Assembly: GCF_004168285.1 (NCBI RefSeq)
Contig: NZ_SEWF01000003.1
Coordinates: 62,001-126,000, forward strand
Origin: Emticicia agri
Lineage (GTDB): Bacteria; Bacteroidota; Bacteroidia; Cytophagales; Spirosomataceae
Direction: 5' to 3'
DNA: 64,000 nucleotides
Shown: positions 48,387 through 59,359 of the stretch, in pieces
Numbering within the stretch: position 1 is the first letter of the stretch
How the letters are laid out: every line of letters starts with the position of its first letter
Notes under the pieces: generated by a model
The model's database searches: none
The model's input: only the letters and a program-made list of their open reading frames with translations
Told to the model about the DNA's origin: nothing
Made by a program: the position numbers and the translations under genes

Positions 48387-51026
48387 ATGGCTGAGGAAAC
48401 AGAAAATCTAATCCCAGAATCTTCCAACAACGGCACAATTATCCCAATCAACATCGAAGACGAAATGCGTGGAGCATACATTGATTATTCAATGTCTGTT
48501 ATTATCTCACGTGCTTTACCTGATGTTAGAGATGGACTTAAACCCGTTCACCGCCGTGTATTGTACGGTATGGCAGAACTTGGCGTATATCACAATCGCC
48601 CTTATAAAAAATCAGCACGTATAGTAGGAGAGGTGCTTGGTAAATACCACCCACATGGAGATGCATCGGTATATGATACCATGGTTCGTATGGCTCAGGA
48701 GTGGTCTTTGCGTTATACTTTGGTAGATGGGCAAGGTAATTTTGGGTCAATTGATGGCGATTCACCTGCCGCAATGCGTTATACAGAGGCACGTTTGAAG
48801 CGAATAGCGGAAGAAATGCTTGCCGATATTAATAAAGAAACTGTTGATTTTCAGCCTAATTTTGATGATTCCTTAGAAGAACCCTCAGTGATGCCGGGTA
48901 AAATACCCAACCTTTTATTGAACGGTTCAGCAGGTATTGCAGTAGGTATGGCTACAAATATGGCACCTCATAATTTATCTGAGGTGGTTGATGGTATTGC
49001 CGCCTATGTGGATAATACAGAAATTACGGTTGAAGAATTAATGCACCATATTAAAGCACCTGATTTTCCTACTGGAGCTATTATATACGGCTACAGTGGT
49101 GTAAAGTCGGCATTTGAAACCGGTAGAGGACGTATAGTGTTACGTTCTGTGGCTAATTTTGAAGTATCTAAAACCGGTAAAGACCAGATTGTAGTTACTG
49201 AGATTCCATATATGGTTAATAAGGCCATGATGATTGAGAAAACAGCTCAGTTAATTAATGAAAAGAAAATTGAGGGAATTTCAGACATCAGAGATGAGTC
49301 TGACAGAGATGGTATGCGTATCGTATATGACTTACGTAAGGATGCTGTACCTAATGTGGTACTGAACAATCTGTATAAATATACTCAACTTCAATCATCT
49401 TTCAGTATTAATAACGTGGCGCTTGTAAAAGGTCGGCCGGTTACCTTGAATCTGAAAGATATGATTCGCTATTATGTGGAGCATCGTCTGGAAATTATTA
49501 CCAGACGTACGCAATATGATTTAAAAGAGGCTGAAAAAAGAGCACATATTTTAATCGGACTTCTGATTGCATTAGATTATATAGATGCAGTAATTACACT
49601 CATTCGTAGGTCAAAAGACGCAGATGAAGCCAGAACTGGATTAATGCAAGGCGATTTCATGACTGCTCAGCAGAAAGAAAAATTCTTGACAGAAGGTTTA
49701 CAACGCTTGCAGATTGTTGATGAGTTGAGTACTGATGCAGAAAGTGGGAATATCTTAAGCGAAGTGCAGGCAAAAGCTATTCTGGATATGCGTTTGCAAC
49801 GTTTGGTAGGACTGGAAAGAGATAAGTTAAATGCTGAATTTGAAGAAATCAAAAACCTGATTGAAGACCTACGTGCCATTTTAGGGTCAGAAGAAAGAAA
49901 AAGGATTATTATCAAAGAAGAGTTGGCGGAGTTAAAAGCCCGCTATGGTGATGAAAGACGTTCTAAAATTGAAATGGCTGCAGGAGAATTCAGTATCGAA
50001 GATATGATTCCAGATGATGAAATGCTTGTAACTATTTCACATCAGGGATATATCAAACGTACAGCATTGCAGGAGTATAGAACACAGGGGAGAGGTGGTA
50101 CTGGCTCAAGAGGTGTTAAAACAAAAGACGAGGACTATACCGAGCATTTGTTTGCTGCCACAAATCATAATTATCTTTTATTCTTTACTAAAAAAGGTAA
50201 ACTTTTTTGGTTGAGAGTATTTGAAATACCTGAAGGTAGTAAAACAGCTAAAGGAAGAGCCATTCAGAACCTGATTAATATTGAATCTGATGATAAGATT
50301 CAGGCTGTTCTGAACGTAACTACACTTACTGATGAAGACTATATTAATAACAATTATATAGTCATGTGTACAGAAGACGGTACTGTAAAGAAAACACTTT
50401 TAGAAGCTTATTCTCGGCCACGTCAGGGAGGAATTATTGCTATTAATATTAATGAAGGCGATAACCTGCTGGATGTAGCGCTTACTAATGGAGACAATAA
50501 TATAGTAATAGCCGCCAAAAATGGTAAAGTAGTTCGTTTTCACGAATCGGGTACACGCCCAATGGGACGTACAGCCACAGGTGTAAGAGGTATCAGTCTG
50601 GAAGGAGATGACAAGGTAATTGGAATGGTTTGTGTTTCAAGAGCTGATACACAGCTACTGGTTGTTTCAGAAAAAGGTTACGGAAAACGCTCTGATATAG
50701 AAGATTATCGTATTACGTCAAGAGGTGCAAAAGGTGTGAAAACATTGAATATTACCGATAAGACGGGTACATTGGTTGCCATAAAAGAGGTAACAGATGA
50801 TGATGATTTGATGATTATTACTAAAAATGGTATTGCTATTCGTATTAAAATTGCAGATCTGAGAGTTATGGGGCGTAATACACAGGGAGTAAGGCTTATT
50901 AGATTAAATGATACAGATGATATTGCTTCGGTTACTCGTATTATTCGTGAAGAAGACGAGGAAGAAACTGCAGAAGGTGGAGACAATTCAGGTGTATCAA
51001 CCGAGACAGAAACGTCAGTAGAGTAG
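48387..51026 (+). CDS. gyrA: DNA gyrase subunit A
   Basis: An 879-aa subunit of the DNA gyrase. [26 protein letters not shown] opens the breakage-reunion domain, [26 protein letters not shown] covers the quinolone-determining region, and [10 protein letters not shown] has the catalytic Tyr. The C-terminal beta-propeller (about 510-850) has the repeated blades and the GyrA box [13 protein letters not shown] near residue 570. The QRDR positions read [10 protein letters not shown], with Ser and Asp as in susceptible strains. The acidic tail ([13 protein letters not shown]) is normal. Confidence 0.97.
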
Positions 51027-51143: not shown

Positions 51144-52253
51144 ATGAAAAAAACCATTTTTGTGTCTGTCTTATCAATGGTTACGGCAGGCGTATTTGCA
51201 CAAGCAGGACTTGATAATCAGCTTCGCGATGCACAATGTAAATCAGCAGCTGATGAAATAGCAAAAGGTGAAAAAGCAAGTCTGGATGCTAAAAAAGGTG
51301 CAAAATCTTCAACCTGGGTTAAACTTGCTACTGCTTATGAAGATATGGCTATTAATTGCGGTAAAGACTCAATGGCATCAGAAAAAGCATACAATACTTA
51401 CAAAAAGGCACTGGAAGTTGAAGCAGGAGGGAAAGGTGCTAAAGATATTGAGGCCGCTTTAACGAGTCAGAAAATCTATTCAGCATTAATGCAACAAGGC
51501 GCAGGTTTCTATAATTCTAAAAATTTCCCAAATGCGCTTAAATTGTTCAGATTAGCTTCTGAAGTAAATCCTAAAGATACCACTGCAGCATTGTATTCAG
51601 GTATAGTAGGACAACAAGCCAAAGATAACGAGGCTGCTAAAATTTACTTTAATAAGTTTATTGAACAGGGAGGTAAAGATCCGGCTGTATTCTATAGTTT
51701 ATCAGAAATCTACAAAGGTGAAAAAAATACAGCTAAAGCAGTAGAAGTATTAAAAAAAGGCATTACTGCTAATCCTAATGATAAAGACTTGAAGGGATCT
51801 CTTGTAAACGTTCAATTATCAAGCGGAAATTCAGACGAAGCAATTGCTGAATTGAAGAAATTAGTAGATTCAGACCCTAATAATATAAATAATATGCTAA
51901 ATCTGGCAATTCTTTATGATAATAGCGGTAAGAAAGAGGAAGCATTAGAGCTTTATAAGAAAGTTATGGCTATAGACCCAACTAATTATGACTGTAACTT
52001 TAATTTAGGCGTTTATTACTTCAATCAAGCTGTAAAAATTAAAGAAGAAGTAGATAAAATGGATATGAAAGAGTATCAAAAAAGTGGTAAAGCAATAGAA
52101 GATAAAGCATGTGCTAAATTCGCTGAGGCAAAACCATACTTTGATACGTGTAAGGCTGTCAGAGACAAAGAAGGAAAAGCACTTGAAGAAGATTTAACTA
52201 ATAGTCTGACAAGTTTAACTACAGTTCTTGAGCAGTGTGCAAAACGCAAATAA
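51144..52253 (+). CDS. Secreted TPR-repeat protein
   Basis: A 369-aa exported protein: signal peptide (1-19, ending GVFAQ), then TPRs from about residue 110 to 300 (FYNSKNFPNALKLFRLASEVNPKD, AVFYSLSEIYKGEKNTAKAVEVLKKGITANPND, NNMLNLAILYDNSGKKEEALELYKKVMAIDP). Several cysteines are spread in the mature part. It probably binds a partner protein in the periplasm. It stands between gyrA and a strong terminator. Confidence 0.82.
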   Translation: MKKTIFVSVLSMVTAGVFAQAGLDNQLRDAQCKSAADEIAKGEKASLDAKKGAKSSTWVKLATAYEDMAINCGKDSMASEKAYNTYKKALEVEAGGKGAKDIEAALTSQKIYSALMQQGAGFYNSKNFPNALKLFRLASEVNPKDTTAALYSGIVGQQAKDNEAAKIYFNKFIEQGGKDPAVFYSLSEIYKGEKNTAKAVEVLKKGITANPNDKDLKGSLVNVQLSSGNSDEAIAELKKLVDSDPNNINNMLNLAILYDNSGKKEEALELYKKVMAIDPTNYDCNFNLGVYYFNQAVKIKEEVDKMDMKEYQKSGKAIEDKACAKFAEAKPYFDTCKAVRDKEGKALEEDLTNSLTSLTTVLEQCAKRK

Positions 52254-52459: not shown

Positions 52460-52487
52460 ATTTAACATAATATAAATTATATAACAT
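52460..52487. other. Candidate dif site (XerCD target)
   Basis: 28 bp in an 11-6-11 layout: left arm ATTTAACATAA (52460-52470), core TATAAA (52471-52476), right arm TTATATAACAT (52477-52487). Read on the minus strand, the arm TTATGTTAAAT is identical in all 11 bases to the E. coli XerD-binding arm, and the core TTTATA differs by one base from TGTATA. The other arm is more diverged, as is usual between phyla. Most flanking genes on each side point toward the site, as expected at a replication terminus. Confidence 0.65.
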
Positions 52488-52609
52488 ATATTTTAATCTA
52501 TTCTACAGGGGAAAAGGTGTGGAAAATAAAAAATCCACGTGGAACATTTGTTGATAATTTGTTAAATTCTTTTTCTCTCCTTCTGAAATCTGTGTAAGAA
52601 AAAATATTC

Positions 52610-52936
52610 TTAATTAAGAAAAGCTTTTAATGCTTTTGGTTTTCGCCCAACTTTTTTACGCATTTTAACTTTCTCTGGCCGTTCCTTTATCTTCTTATCT
52701 TCAAAGAACACGCCTAAGGCTTCAATAATTATATCCTTTTGCGACATGCCTTCCCAGTAACCATAATCTTTCATGGTTTCAACCAATTCGTTCGGACAAT
52801 CGAATGTAACTTTAGTTGATGGCCCGTTGTCTTGTAGAGCAGCTATCGCTGCCGGCTGATTAACTGTTGCCGTAGATTGTTCAGTATTTTTTGTAGGAAC
52901 TAAACTTTCAAAGGTGAAATTTTTATTCTTTGCCAT
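52610..52936 (-). CDS. Small DNA-binding partner of ParA (ribbon-helix-helix-like)
   Basis: A 108-aa basic protein. Residues about 50-90 (TKVTFDCPNELVETMKDYGYWEGMSQKDIIIEALGVFFEDK) fit a ribbon-helix-helix fold with the beta strand KVTFDCP and two helices; the C-terminal tail is Lys/Arg-rich (KVKMRKKVGRKPKALK). The N-terminal 45 residues look disordered. The gene lies 60 nt downstream of parA, the usual layout of small plasmid ParB-like partners that bind the centromere. Confidence 0.72.
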   Translation of the reverse strand: MAKNKNFTFESLVPTKNTEQSTATVNQPAAIAALQDNGPSTKVTFDCPNELVETMKDYGYWEGMSQKDIIIEALGVFFEDKKIKERPEKVKMRKKVGRKPKALKAFLN

Positions 52937-52996: not shown

Positions 52997-53761
52997 TTAA
53001 TTATTAATACTTTTTAGAATCTCTTTTGTTAATTGATAATAATCCATAGCACCATTGCTTTCCGGTGAGTAAGAAAAAATATCTTTTCCGTTTGCCTGAG
53101 CTTCAGAAATAGCAATATTATCTCTGATAGTTGTAGTAAAAAATGAACTGCCTAATTGCTGTTTTGTAGCTTCGATAATATCGTTACTAAGTTTCTTGTT
53201 TATTCGAGGATTATACCTGGTCGCAAAAACACCACCTAATTTGGTCTGAGGACTAATAAGTTGTAGTTCTGAAGAATAATTTAAGAAATTCCTGAGCCCT
53301 TCATAACTTAAAAATTCTGCTTGTAGAGGCACTAAATAAATGTCGCAGGCTATAAGCGCAACTCTTGTCATTCCTGAAAGTGTGGGAGGACAATCAATCA
53401 TAATGTAATCATAGTTCTTTTTTACTTTCTCTAATAGTAGCTTTAGGTTGAAAGGAAATACCGGTGAGGCTTTGATTGCATCTTCTTTTGAATTAAGCTC
53501 GGCGGCGCTGGGTAATAAATCTCCTATTGCTGTATTTATTACAATACTTTCAAAAGGAAATTCGCCACTCAGGTAATTACCTACATGGTTCTTTCCAACC
53601 TGGGATTCCTGAACACCAAAACATCTTGTAAGACTGGCTTGTCCGTCAAGGTCAATGAACAGTACACGAGCATTTGCAAATTTCTGAAAGGCAGCACCAA
53701 GATTTTGAGTAGAGGTGGTTTTACCCACTCCCCCTTTGTTGTTTACTACACTAATGGTCAT
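52997..53761 (-). CDS. ParA-family partition ATPase, plasmid type
   Basis: A 254-aa deviant Walker ATPase: KGGVGKTT at residues 9-16, LFIDLDGQASLT, and MIDCPPTLS, plus LVPLQAEFLSYEGL. There is no N-terminal helix-turn-helix, so it is of the small type used by plasmids and integrated elements, not the type Ia form. It moves DNA bound by the adjacent small partner. The AT-rich leader to its right carries ten repeats of ACTTAT/ATAAGT that could be the centromere. The combination with an XRE repressor and a dif-like site suggests an integrated plasmid-like element. Confidence 0.85.
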   Translation of the reverse strand: MTISVVNNKGGVGKTTSTQNLGAAFQKFANARVLFIDLDGQASLTRCFGVQESQVGKNHVGNYLSGEFPFESIVINTAIGDLLPSAAELNSKEDAIKASPVFPFNLKLLLEKVKKNYDYIMIDCPPTLSGMTRVALIACDIYLVPLQAEFLSYEGLRNFLNYSSELQLISPQTKLGGVFATRYNPRINKKLSNDIIEATKQQLGSSFFTTTIRDNIAISEAQANGKDIFSYSPESNGAMDYYQLTKEILKSINN

Positions 53762-54300
53762 TGTATATAAGAATAATATTGTGCAGCAATATAGAACAAA
53801 TCATTCGTAGTAACAATATTAATTAATAACTTATTATAGTTAATAATATCTTTATAATATGTATAGAATGTTTTTATAGAGGTAATTGTAATAAATATAT
53901 AATTCTTATAAAATATAAATACTTATCTATAAGTAATAATGGTATTTTAATTAATAAAAAAAGTAAAATACATACTTATATTAAATAATGTTATAATTTA
54001 TATATACTTATTTTATTATCAATATATAATAAACTTATAATTTTTATGAAACTTATTTAATTAATGGTATGTATAATTAATTAATTAAGTTTTAAACTTA
54101 ATAAAAGTATTTAATTTATAATATGTATTATTTCAATAATAAAGATAATATGTATAAATAATAGTATTATTATGATAAGTATAAATAAATCTAAAAATAA
54201 AAATATATTTTGAATGCATAATAAGTATATAATGTTTAATAAGTTTATTTATGTACTAATAGTATAGTTTGTATTTGCAACTCATTATATAGGTTGTTTT
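53762..54300. repeat. Very AT-rich leader with iterated ACTTAT/ATAAGT, candidate centromere
   Basis: This stretch has about 15% or less G+C by eye. ACTTAT occurs at 53829, 53921, 53974, 54006, 54033 and 54051; the reverse form ATAAGT at 53929, 54175, 54221 and 54239 (first base of each). Copies at 53920-53935 form a palindrome (TACTTAT, CT, ATAAGTA). The forward copies are on the left and, apart from that palindrome, the reverse copies on the right. Further ATAAGT lie at 54777, 56241 and 56248. Confidence 0.55.
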
Positions 54301-55306
<1,006 letters not shown>

Positions 55307-55563
55307 TACGAAAAGTAAGAAGTAGCATCTTACTCTATTAGCCTTGGAGCAACTCACGAACTATAAAACTTTAATGGAGAATTGATTAGACTTTATAGTT
55401 TGCATGATTTACCTTTTCGTCAAAAACTGATTCAATTCAATTAAGTATAATAGCTTGGTGAAATTTTGAATAAACATGCAACTGGAGTTTAGAATGAAAT
55501 TCAATCAATCACACCAAGCTAAAACATAGTCTTCTTTTGTTTATCCGACACTCTGACAAATTG

Positions 55564-55995
55564 TCATGTATTGCTCGACTCAAAAACCTGAGTATTTCCA
55601 TCCGTATAAACAACAATAATTCTTGCTACATTACCATGCCCGAAATTAGGCAAAATTGTGCTGCTGAGATTTTGTTGTGGTGTAGCATTATCCGCAATTT
55701 TCCTTTCAAGCGATTCTCGGGAGGCAAATATAGGCCTCTTTTGTTGTGTAACTGCTTGATTATTAGTGACTTGTGATAATGCTTGAGTCTCATTTTCTTC
55801 ATCTTCTAAAAACCAATCGAAGCCAAGTTCAGGGTATCTTTTGTAAATTTTTTGAACAATCTCTAAACTGGGCTTATTTCTGTCAGATAAAATGTGTGAT
55901 ATGCTCGGTCTGGGCACTCCAATTTCATCTGCAAACTTAGTAGAGGTCAAATCTTTGTCATTAATAAATCGGCGAATCTTCTCATTTAATTTCAT
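55564..55995 (-). CDS. XRE-family transcriptional regulator
   Basis: A 143-aa DNA-binding repressor. The helix-turn-helix (about 5-60) has LNEKIRRFINDKDLTSTKFADEIGVPRPSISHILSDRNKPSLEIVQKI; the C-terminal half has a linker and the ending ARIIVVYTDGNTQVFE, a common tail of Bacteroidota XRE regulators (IVVFYxDxTFxxY-like). The frame extends upstream to 56037 but ATG at 55995 gives the family start. Its own promoter and several GTAAAC/GTTTAC sites lie upstream, so it is probably autoregulated, as in phage and plasmid repressors. Confidence 0.85.
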   Translation of the reverse strand: MKLNEKIRRFINDKDLTSTKFADEIGVPRPSISHILSDRNKPSLEIVQKIYKRYPELGFDWFLEDEENETQALSQVTNNQAVTQQKRPIFASRESLERKIADNATPQQNLSSTILPNFGHGNVARIIVVYTDGNTQVFESSNT

Positions 55996-56025
55996 AAACA
56001 GTTTACAATTATATTTATAAATAAT

Positions 56026-56048
56026 AGATGTAAACAAAAGTAAACACT
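56026..56048. promoter_or_regulatory. GTAAAC operator pair
   Basis: GATGTAAAC and AAGTAAAC lie side by side in the leader of the XRE gene, between its presumed transcription start and the coding sequence. A third GTTTAC lies at 56000-56005. They resemble the palindrome at 56145-56167. Confidence 0.5.
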
Positions 56049-56613: not shown

Positions 56614-56907
56614 AGTATATATGGCAAGTAAAATGTGATAGAAAATAGAAAACGCTAAAGGTAAATCCAGACTCGGAGTTAATAGATAATCTCAATTAAT
56701 AGCAACCTTATGTTTTATTTATATAGACAAACTGACAGTATATTATATGACTAACTATTTAAGCATGGATAGCGTCCTTTATTTTTCCTCCTTAAAGGTT
56801 TAATGTATATCTAAATCTCTTGGTTATTTTCTTAATAATGAAATTGACTCTACACATAAATAGTTTAATTCTCTTTAATGAAGTATGTATTCTGGCCTAA
56901 CTCGTAA
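56614..56907. other. AT-rich gap, nothing identified
   Basis: No credible gene or strong structure up to the dapD terminator. Confidence 0.4.
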
Positions 56908-56962: not shown

Positions 56963-57772
56963 TCAGACTGAGACGTTATTTTCTCTCAGTGCTTCATTCA
57001 GAGAGGTCTTAAGGTCTGTACTTGCTTTTCTCTGGCCTATGATAAGGGCACAAGGTACTCCAAAATCTCCGGCAGGATATTTTTTAGGTAGCATGCCAGG
57101 GATAACTACAGAGTTATCAGGAACATAACCAATGTACTCCTGGCCGGTATTAACATCGATAATTTTAGAACTACTGGTAATAGTTACTCCTGCTCCTAAG
57201 ACGGCTCTTTTGCCTATCCTTGCTCCTTCTACAACTATACAACGGGAGCCAATAAATGCCCCGTCTTCAATGATTACCGGAGAGGCCTGTGCAGGCTCTA
57301 AAACGCCTCCAATGCCTACGCCACCACTTAAATGTACATCTTGCCCTATTTGAGCGCAACTACCTACTGTAGCCCAGGTATCTACCATAGTTCCTGAATC
57401 TACATACGCCCCTATATTAACATAAGAAGGCATTAGAATAACTCCTTTAGCTAAATAAGACCCATATCTCGCTACTGCGGGAGGAACCACCCTTACACCA
57501 ATCTTATCGTATCCTGTTTTTAATTTCATTTTATCATGATATTCGAAGATGCCTACTTCCTGAATATTCATTTGTTGCAGAGGAAAATATAGTATAATGG
57601 CTTTCTTTACCCAATCATTTGTGGTCCAGGTTCCATCTTCATTAGGATTAGAGACGCGGATGATTCCCTCGTTTAATTGGTTAATTATTTCTTCAATTGC
57701 ATTTTTAGTAGCGGGGTCATTAATTAATGAGCGATCTTCCCAAGCAGATTCTATAACTGTTTTTAAAGACAT
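56963..57772 (-). CDS. dapD: Tetrahydrodipicolinate N-succinyltransferase
   Basis: A 269-aa left-handed beta-helix acyltransferase of lysine and diaminopimelate synthesis; it moves succinyl from CoA to tetrahydrodipicolinate in the cytoplasm. The hexapeptide-repeat region (about 105-225) includes GVILMPSYVNIGAYVDSGTMVDTWATVGSCAQIGQDVHLSGGVGIGGVLEP and IEDGAFIGSRCIVVEGARIGKRAVLGAGVTIT. N-terminal helices (WEDRSLINDPATKNAIEEII) are typical. Length fits the family. Confidence 0.95.
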   Translation of the reverse strand: MSLKTVIESAWEDRSLINDPATKNAIEEIINQLNEGIIRVSNPNEDGTWTTNDWVKKAIILYFPLQQMNIQEVGIFEYHDKMKLKTGYDKIGVRVVPPAVARYGSYLAKGVILMPSYVNIGAYVDSGTMVDTWATVGSCAQIGQDVHLSGGVGIGGVLEPAQASPVIIEDGAFIGSRCIVVEGARIGKRAVLGAGVTITSSSKIIDVNTGQEYIGYVPDNSVVIPGMLPKKYPAGDFGVPCALIIGQRKASTDLKTSLNEALRENNVSV

Positions 57773-58351
57773 TTTATGGTTATTTAAAATATTAATATAA
57801 AAATTATAAAGTGTTTATAGTCAATTATTTATGATTAAATTTTAAGTATTTTTTAAGTAAATATAAATAAATTAGTGACATTTACTATACATAAATACAA
57901 AGGTAAGATAATATATTTAAAAAACACAGATGCGGTTCTAAGGTTGTCAGTATTTTAAGTAGTGCTGCATTGCATGCATCTCTCCCCTACTAATTATATC
58001 AAAGCAAAAACTGAGATAGCAATTAAACCTATGATAAAACATTTAAATCATTCAGCGATTGCTCTGTTTTTCTGGTTACAGAAGCATTTTTTGCAATATA
58101 AATCAACGATTAAACTCGAATAATGCAAAATCATTAAATGGTCAGATTAAAACTAAAATATAATAGTCATAATTAACTAATATTTTTAGTTTTAATTACT
58201 AATTAATATTTAGCTTTTTGGTTAAAATTACTAAAAATATTAGTAAACACTAATTAGTAATTAATTATTCTACATTCATTTATTGTCTTTCATTAATATA
58301 AAAATCTTCTTAACTTGCACTATCGTACCACTTAAACCAAATTATTTTAAA
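57773..58351. other. AT-rich gap between dapD and gap with inverted repeat
   Basis: No gene. ACTAATATTTTTAGT (58176-58190) and its exact reverse complement (58230-58244) are separated by 39 nt of ACTAATTA/TTAGTAATTA-rich sequence. It lies about 110 nt upstream of the gap start and may be regulatory. Confidence 0.5.
58176..58244. repeat. 15-bp perfect inverted repeat upstream of gap
   Basis: Arms at 58176-58190 and 58230-58244. The centre holds further ACTAATTA-like repeats. In a region this AT-rich some chance pairing is expected, but 15 of 15 is notable. Confidence 0.6.
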
Positions 58352-59359
58352 ATGTCACAAATAAAGGTAGCTATTAATGGGTTTGGACGAATTGGAAGAC
58401 TCGCCTATCGTCAAATTTATAATATGGATGGAATTGATGTAGTTGCAATTAATGATTTAACCAGCCCATCAGCTCTTGCTCATTTGCTAAAATATGACAG
58501 TGCTCAAGGTAGATTTGATGCAGAAGTAAAATCTACAGATAATAGCATTCTCGTTAATGGAGAAGAAATCAAAATTTATGCTCAAAAGAATCCGGCAGAA
58601 ATTCCTTGGGGAACTCATGAAGTGGATGTAGTTTTAGAATGTACTGGATTTTTTACTGATAAAGATAAAGCTGCCGCACATTTAACGGCCGGAGCAAAAC
58701 GAGTTATTATTAGTGCTCCTGCTACAGGAGATTTAAAAACTATCGTATTCAATGTAAATCATGAAATACTTGATGGTAGTGAAACTATTATTAGTTGTGC
58801 AAGTTGTACTACCAACTGTTTAGCCCCAATGGCCAAAGCACTTAATGACACATTTGGAATTATATTAGGTAGTATGACTACTGTTCATGCTTATACAAAC
58901 GACCAAAATACGTTAGATGCTCCACATGCGAAGGGTGATTTACGTAGAGCGAGAGCTGCTGCTGCCAATATAGTTCCAAATAGCACTGGTGCAGCAAAAG
59001 CTATTGGCTTAGTTTTACCTGAATTGAAAGGTAAACTTGATGGTGGTGCTCAACGTGTTCCAACAATTACAGGAAGTTTAACTGAATTAACAACTGTTTT
59101 AGATAAAACTGTAACTGTTCAAGAAGTTAATGCGGCAATGAAGGCAGCAAGCAATGAAAGTTTCGGCTATACCGAAGATGAAATTGTGAGCAGTGATATT
59201 ATTGGTATTAACTTTGGAAGTTTATTTGATGCCACTCAAACCAAAGTTGTTACCGTTGGTGACAAACAATTAGTTAAAACTGTGAGCTGGTACGATAATG
59301 AAATGAGTTATGTGAGTCAATTAGTTAGAACGGTAAAGTACTTTGCTACACTCATATAG
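58352..59359 (+). CDS. gap: Glyceraldehyde-3-phosphate dehydrogenase, type I
   Basis: A 335-aa NAD-dependent glycolytic enzyme. [18 protein letters not shown] is the NAD Rossmann start; [13 protein letters not shown] contains the active-site Cys; [43 protein letters not shown] is the typical loop and [16 protein letters not shown] the end. The frame continues upstream to 58283, but ATG at 58352 ([12 protein letters not shown]) is the family start. It faces the minus-strand neighbours on both sides. A fragment of a diverged copy lies at 55112-55306 in the same orientation. Confidence 0.96.

Follow-up and report, generated by a model that had tools for sequence, protein, structure and literature searches.

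The locus considered here raises the question of whether a dif-like sequence of Emticicia agri marks the terminus of the chromosome or the edge of an accessory island that settled there through the Xer system, as was proposed in an earlier note on this DNA, and of what the genes and sites beside it do. The window (the whole stretch of DNA analyzed, 64,000 nucleotides) contains the following features around this sequence:

48387 to 51026, plus strand: gyrA (NCBIfam GyrA equivalog), beyond the TPR gene, left of dif
51144 to 52253, plus strand: TPR protein (Pfam TPR), the last gene left of dif
52460 to 52487, minus strand in the E. coli orientation: chromosomal dif (XerC/XerD site), as identified by sequence, uniqueness, conservation and skew
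52533 to 52546, plus strand: dif-linked half-parS motif ATCCACGTGGAACA, with its core 13-mer ATYCACGTGRAAC at 52533 to 52545
52610 to 52936, minus strand: small conserved basic protein of 108 amino acids, partner of ParA, a suspected ribbon-helix-helix protein
52997 to 53761, minus strand: ParA-family ATPase (Pfam AAA_31, 3e-41; Soj/ParA relatives in PDB)
53762 to 54260, no strand: strongly AT-rich region upstream of parA in which ATAAGT/ACTTAT is repeated (ACTTAT in excess), a possible centromere
55564 to 56037, minus strand: helix-turn-helix (HTH) protein of the XRE type (Pfam HTH_3), right border of the dif interval
56963 to 57772, minus strand: dapD (Pfam THDPS_N_2 and Hexapep), right of the HTH gene

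XerC and XerD act at dif under FtsK, whereby chromosome dimers are resolved. The 28-mer at 52460 to 52487 (ATTTAACATAATATAAATTATATAACAT) has the 11-6-11 layout described in the earlier note and reads ATGTTATATAA-TTTATA-TTATGTTAAAT on the minus strand; its 11-base XerD arm is identical to that of E. coli dif, from which the core differs by one base. The search for other copies, or for a better dif elsewhere, that the note had recommended returned a single match in the 6.65-Mb genome (up to 3 mismatches), and likewise a single one in the window, against an expectation of 0.00 chance matches at that threshold (100 shuffles of the window) and 0 matches in the 6.65-Mb genome for the reversed 28-mer. 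The recommended comparison with related Cytophagales also bore the site out, as dif is matched in other families of the order: 41 of the 58 order genomes searched contain the 28-mer (its own genome included, up to 3 mismatches), and a degenerate dif pattern is matched in 96 of 157 genomes of an order sample. Within the family (Spirosomataceae) this pattern matches 113 of 120 genomes, with 0 matches for its reversed control in the family and order samples, and a second copy occurs in the family sample in G008 and G009 alone (both Emticicia), on other contigs.

The position of the site is likewise that of a terminus. The cumulative GC-skew maximum, which the note had expected near 52.5 kb, falls at window position 56685, 4.2 kb right of dif, as calculated from this 246-kb contig alone of 174 (2 kb of it read as N). 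In five genomes that carry dif and a full parS both on one near-complete contig, the two are separated by 0.95, 0.97, 0.96, 0.85, and 0.56 of half the chromosome, the last value being that of G031; the full parS is far from dif in four of the five. Most flanking genes are aimed at dif, as the note had stated from the window: among ORFs of at least 100 amino acids in 104 family loci, 209 are on the plus and 63 on the minus strand left of dif, and 461 are on the minus and 126 on the plus strand beyond the HTH gene. By its sequence, uniqueness, position, and conservation, 52460 to 52487 is identified as the chromosomal dif of Emticicia. With other bacterial dif/XerCD sites, both that of E. coli and those of Bacteroidetes in a 2011 paper (PMC3091885), it shares a length of 28 bp, the 11-6-11 layout, an XerD arm identical to that of E. 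coli, an intergenic place near the skew peak, and a number of one per chromosome; dif itself is no different here, and what is extra is the half-parS linked to it. That paper describes chromosome dimer resolution in the phylum as unstudied at the time (PMC3091885).

The order gyrA-TPR-dif-(interval)-HTH-dapD is an arrangement of the terminus that is common to the family. Of 104 family loci, representing 34 genera, 96 have a TPR match on the left of dif, and in a set of 23 family loci this match ends about 50 to 290 bp from dif, except in L070 (2.6 kb); in 21 of these 23, gyrA follows further to the left, beyond the TPR gene, and the other two (L054 and L063) end before gyrA. On the right of dif, the HTH gene is found in 94 of 104 family loci (on the minus strand in 93 of the 94) and dapD in 92 of 104, and many of the TPR, HTH, and dapD misses among the 104 loci are contig ends. 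The interval between dif and the HTH gene ranges from 49 bp to 9 kb across the family and its contents vary by genus, such that other genera have the same interval with different ORFs or nearly empty. The ORFs found there elsewhere presumably include MazG-like and DNA-methyltransferase-like proteins (putative, from a reading of sequence alone). In five Emticicia genomes the stretch from ParA to the HTH gene contains two additional large ORFs (e.g., L048:12290-15441), which in G008 encode one protein with DUF5074 and one TonB-receptor plug protein; the window has a shorter, AT-rich ParA-HTH spacer (53762 to 55563) without those two ORFs. The idea that this spacer is a giant non-coding centromere was rejected on account of the two large ORFs that occupy it in the five Emticicia genomes. 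Also between ParA and the HTH gene, a 64-amino-acid ORF at 55112 to 55306 of the window is an altered partial repeat of GAPDH (intact at 58283 to 59359) and represents a decayed duplicate; no second GAPDH match was found at that place in the relatives searched.

Chromosomal parS is TGTTYCACGTGRAACA. Between dif and the HTH gene, the window contains ATYCACGTGRAAC, a parS in which one arm is complete while only AT remains of the other; read in the 16-bp parS register, 52531 to 52546 is AAATCCACGTGGAACA. In common with chromosomal parS (TGTTYCACGTGRAACA), the motif has the CACGTG core and one intact arm, and the bases that flank the core vary only between C and T and between G and A, as they do in parS. 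It differs from chromosomal parS in that the other arm is broken (AT for GTT), in that it adjoins dif, and in that its place is conserved across genera. The earlier note had overlooked this dif-linked half-parS, which is a real and unexpected feature of the locus.

The motif, whose search pattern was chosen after exact copies were seen, is present in 69 of 104 family loci, always right of dif and in a single orientation, at a distance of 63 bp to 6.5 kb from dif. Counting only loci in which the HTH border is present, 67 of 94 carry it, and these span 20 of 31 genera, or about two thirds. By contrast with the intervals, the flanks contain 0 copies in either orientation over 1.04 Mb (382 kb on the left of dif and 661 kb past the HTH gene). 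Shuffling of the intervals produced the motif in 0 of 96 loci, a set taken from the 104 in which, among the ten loci lacking an HTH match, G035 and G105 (both with the motif) were kept and eight were dropped. The motif is missing in 35 of 104 loci, including G003 (one of nine Emticicia) and all seven g53 (Dyadobacter) loci, and some of these loci end at contig ends. Elsewhere in the order, 84 genomes have a dif match, and none of their dif-bearing contigs, several of which are short, contains the motif. The asymmetry of the arms is apparent from the CACGTG hexamers themselves: among the 85 that lie in intervals, 70 have an intact right arm (RAAC) and 0 an intact left arm, and 69 of the 70 carry the full 13-mer, the three bases left of these 70 hexamers being ATC (42), ATT (27), and CTT (1). 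Outside the intervals, 0 of 81 CACGTG hexamers have either arm. Copies of the exact 14-mer ATCCACGTGGAACA number 33, in 32 of 120 genomes (against 0 for the control), and 31 of them are within 7 kb of dif; one lies beside a dif variant missed by the pattern. In the 69 loci the motif is never within an ORF of at least 90 amino acids, and both neighboring genes converge on it in 50; the neighbors are not convergent in the remaining 19, in several of which the motif is upstream of a gene. In most loci the half-parS does not serve as a promoter operator. Among the open-access papers listed as matches, none deals with parS, whole or half, at a dif site. In this terminus, dif itself is ordinary and the dif-linked half-parS is the unexpected part.

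ParB of Pseudomonas aeruginosa binds a half-parS heptamer, GTTCCAC/GTTTCAC, at hundreds of places (PMC7022226; PMC10419367). The intact arm of our motif, GTGRAAC (GTGGAAC/GTGAAAC), is this heptamer on the other strand and is present at 70 of the 85 interval CACGTG hexamers; a canonical parS is not found, as the left arm is intact in 0 of the 85 and the site adjoins dif rather than the origin. The P. aeruginosa heptamers are scattered in the hundreds, whereas here a longer 13-mer is present mostly once per genome, tied to dif and fixed in orientation (PMC7022226; PMC10419367). ParB is encoded in 118 of 120 family genomes. Origin-distal sites are reportedly bound by Spo0J in B. subtilis. Five copies of the motif lie away from dif, two of them as the exact 14-mer in the 120 genomes (G011 and G076) and three as the 13-mer (G022, G058, and G081, among 12 family genomes searched). 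In G022 and G076, which have a full parS, these copies are 4 to 8 kb from it, as if they belonged to one parS cluster with it; the remaining three are in genomes without a full parS and are uninformative on clustering.

The joint explanation that we regard as best, with a probability of roughly 0.6, is that the dif is chromosomal, that the half-parS is a putative weak ParB site tied to dif, and that the ParA pair (discussed below) is resident, as judged from comparison of sequences. Chromosomal ParB would bind the intact arm GTGRAAC, and the broken arm, which faces dif, would keep the site weak. Such a weak site could hold ParB or SMC near dif late in the cycle without creating a second full centromere.

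The alternative that survives best, although it is rather unlikely, is that the half-parS merely resembles parS and is read by DnaA, by the neighboring HTH protein, or by an unknown terminus protein. GTGRAAC alone is found 12 times in the window, and the heptamer therefore leaves the fixed AT of the other arm unexplained; this conserved AT is not that of parS, yet it fits TTATCCAC of the DnaA box. DnaA-box-like sequences (TTWTNCACA) are enriched around the motif, at 0.35 per site against 0.019 in shuffled sequence and 0.015 in other interval windows, and such 9-mers accompany the motif in each of 8 Emticicia loci and also in some other loci (52500 to 52570 of the window; L090-L118), an enrichment that would fit a reader other than ParB. 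However, the intact arm GTGRAAC corresponds to the ParB heptamer and not to a DnaA box. As to the HTH protein, its gene is the usual right neighbor or border of the motif, but it is also present in 27 of 94 intervals that lack the motif, and it faces the motif with its 3' end and not its promoter.

A doubtful extension of ParB binding is that in most Spirosomataceae genera dif has replaced the origin as the place of the main ParB site, the full parS being lost and the one-armed parS serving as a centromere or terminus tether. The exact full parS 14-mer (GTTYCACGTGRAAC) is present in 38 of 120 family genomes, comprising all nine Emticicia and, for the rest, chiefly members of genera that lack the dif-linked site, and it is missing from 58 of the 69 genomes with that site. 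By locus, the half site is alone in 58, the full parS is alone in 23, the two occur together in 11 (Emticicia accounting for 8), and both are missing in 12. Full parS and dif-linked half-parS tend to occupy different genomes, with Emticicia as the main exception. A quick DapD and TrmB tree of 90 of the 104 loci (those with a DapD reading) places 6 changes in each trait, which is too few independent pairs for a test of mutual exclusion. In 18 genomes with a near-complete contig (G143 left out), the ParB gene lies at 0.04 to 0.67 of half the chromosome from dif, with a mean of 0.30, and thus is origin-proximal in none of the 18; in genomes with two ParB genes, these values are for the longer type, and the other lies at 0.48 to 0.60. 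A second ParB lies 20 to 46 kb from dif in three Emticicia genomes (G001:C28, G002:C2, and G009:C25), and in the genus g23, ParB is 15.6 to 16.0 kb from dif in G032:C9, G078:C11, G091:C60, and G112:C97, and 83 kb from it in G134. In G014, no parS with up to 3 mismatches was found in 200 kb around the sequence start, a stretch that may miss the origin, or in 20 kb at the ParB gene. If the main ParB site had indeed moved, ParABS would act on the last-replicated DNA, and Emticicia, with both a full parS and the half site, would show both states together.

It is very unlikely that the motif is a polar terminator or a point of fork fusion or pausing. Its polarity is fixed and gene orientation switches at it, with 35 plus-strand and 22 minus-strand genes between dif and the motif and 3 plus-strand and 74 minus-strand genes between the motif and the HTH gene, but the pattern is mixed when viewed by genus. 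Moreover, interval genes of motif-less loci are on the minus strand from dif onward by 46 to 1, and so the motif is not needed for the minus orientation. The GC skew at fourfold sites of the plus-strand genes between dif and the motif is 0.029 (bootstrap -0.061 to 0.122) and is uninformative, and one polar site would halt forks from one side only.

The third part of the preferred explanation concerns the ParA pair. Type Ib plasmid partition systems have a gene for a ParA ATPase followed by one for a small basic protein. As the earlier note had observed, plasmid-like genes begin some 120 bp right of dif, the stop of the small-protein gene (52610) being 123 bp from it. The pair has the gene order of type Ib plasmid pairs, ParA ATPase and then small basic protein, and differs from them in being chromosomal and in being present in every Emticicia dif locus and Dyadobacter locus examined, with a partner suspected to be of the ribbon-helix-helix type and putative centromere repeats. 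ParA itself is a ParA-family ATPase by its Pfam and PDB matches. A homologue of the small protein adjoins ParA in 45 of 46 loci, the exception being L245, a second ParA of E. aquatica; the protein itself matches no Pfam or NCBIfam family, and its AlphaFold2 model is of low confidence (mean pLDDT 60). The repeats are present in the window and variable within the genus: ACTTAT occurs 11 times in the 1802-bp spacer against 3.5 in shuffles, is not among the top words of the other eight spacers, and lies in a region upstream of parA that has little conservation within Emticicia. Centromere repeats beside parA, although seen in the window, are thus not supported by conservation within the genus. In ten aligned Dyadobacter loci (L210-L243), the region upstream of parA is far better conserved than in Emticicia and has repeated ATAC-containing blocks, and from its sequence it is the better centromere candidate for the ParA pair.

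The distribution of the pair argues for long residence. In every Emticicia genome with a located dif (9 of 9), ParA and its small partner adjoin it (a count that leaves out G005 and G006, of the same genus, which have no dif match), and the pair is also beside dif in two allied genera (G017 and G035). It is present in 37 of 37 Dyadobacter loci; in g53, which we take as Dyadobacter, 7 of 9 genomes have both the pair and dif on one contig, at a distance of 108 to 178 kb. ParA is 85 to 96% identical to its relatives (7 loci), and GyrA is 86 to 96% identical (6 loci). The best plasmid ParA among the matches listed is 41.6% identical, and at least 5000 plasmid records were counted, all less than 60% identical to ParA. 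No transfer, replication, or phage family was above the cut-off in the three interval proteins scanned. An IMEX would have two bounding dif-like sites and a patchy presence; here a single match with up to 3 mismatches exists in the window and the genome, and the pair is in all nine of the Emticicia genomes counted above. The accessory island proposed in the earlier note is consequently not upheld, given that TPR-dif-HTH-dapD is family-wide and that the ParA pair varies about as little as GyrA, and the same holds for an element that settled here via Xer, as the pair is resident in Emticicia and allied genera, no second dif copy is present at up to 3 mismatches, and the interval is otherwise variable.

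Second dif-like sites are present in two Emticicia genomes, on another contig in each (L049:10001-10028 and L051:10001-10028). L049 holds glycoside hydrolases, L051 has ORFs of like size left of the site, and L051 looks like a plasmid because it carries ParA and a Rep3 initiator there. We infer that ParA and the small protein are a resident chromosomal pair and not a recent Xer insertion, and the pair is probably a domesticated plasmid-type partition pair. The least probable account, that an integrative element or plasmid recently inserted the ParA genes at dif through XerC/XerD, can be set aside as highly improbable, since the closeness of ParA-type genes to dif, the second site beside Rep3 and ParA in one Emticicia genome, the weak, sub-cutoff match of the HTH gene to phage RstR repressors, and the integration at dif-like sites proposed for Microviridae proviruses of Bacteroidetes (PMC3091885) are opposed by the presence of the pair in all nine Emticicia genomes with a located dif and in allied genera, the single dif, the distance from plasmid ParA proteins, and the lack of mobile-element families above cut-off in the proteins scanned. 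An old Xer-mediated capture of the ParA pair may nevertheless have taken place.

A conserved, polar half-parS at dif would link ParB and SMC, for which the origin is the usual loading place, with the site of dimer resolution, and it offers a sequence handle on how the terminus is handled in this phylum.
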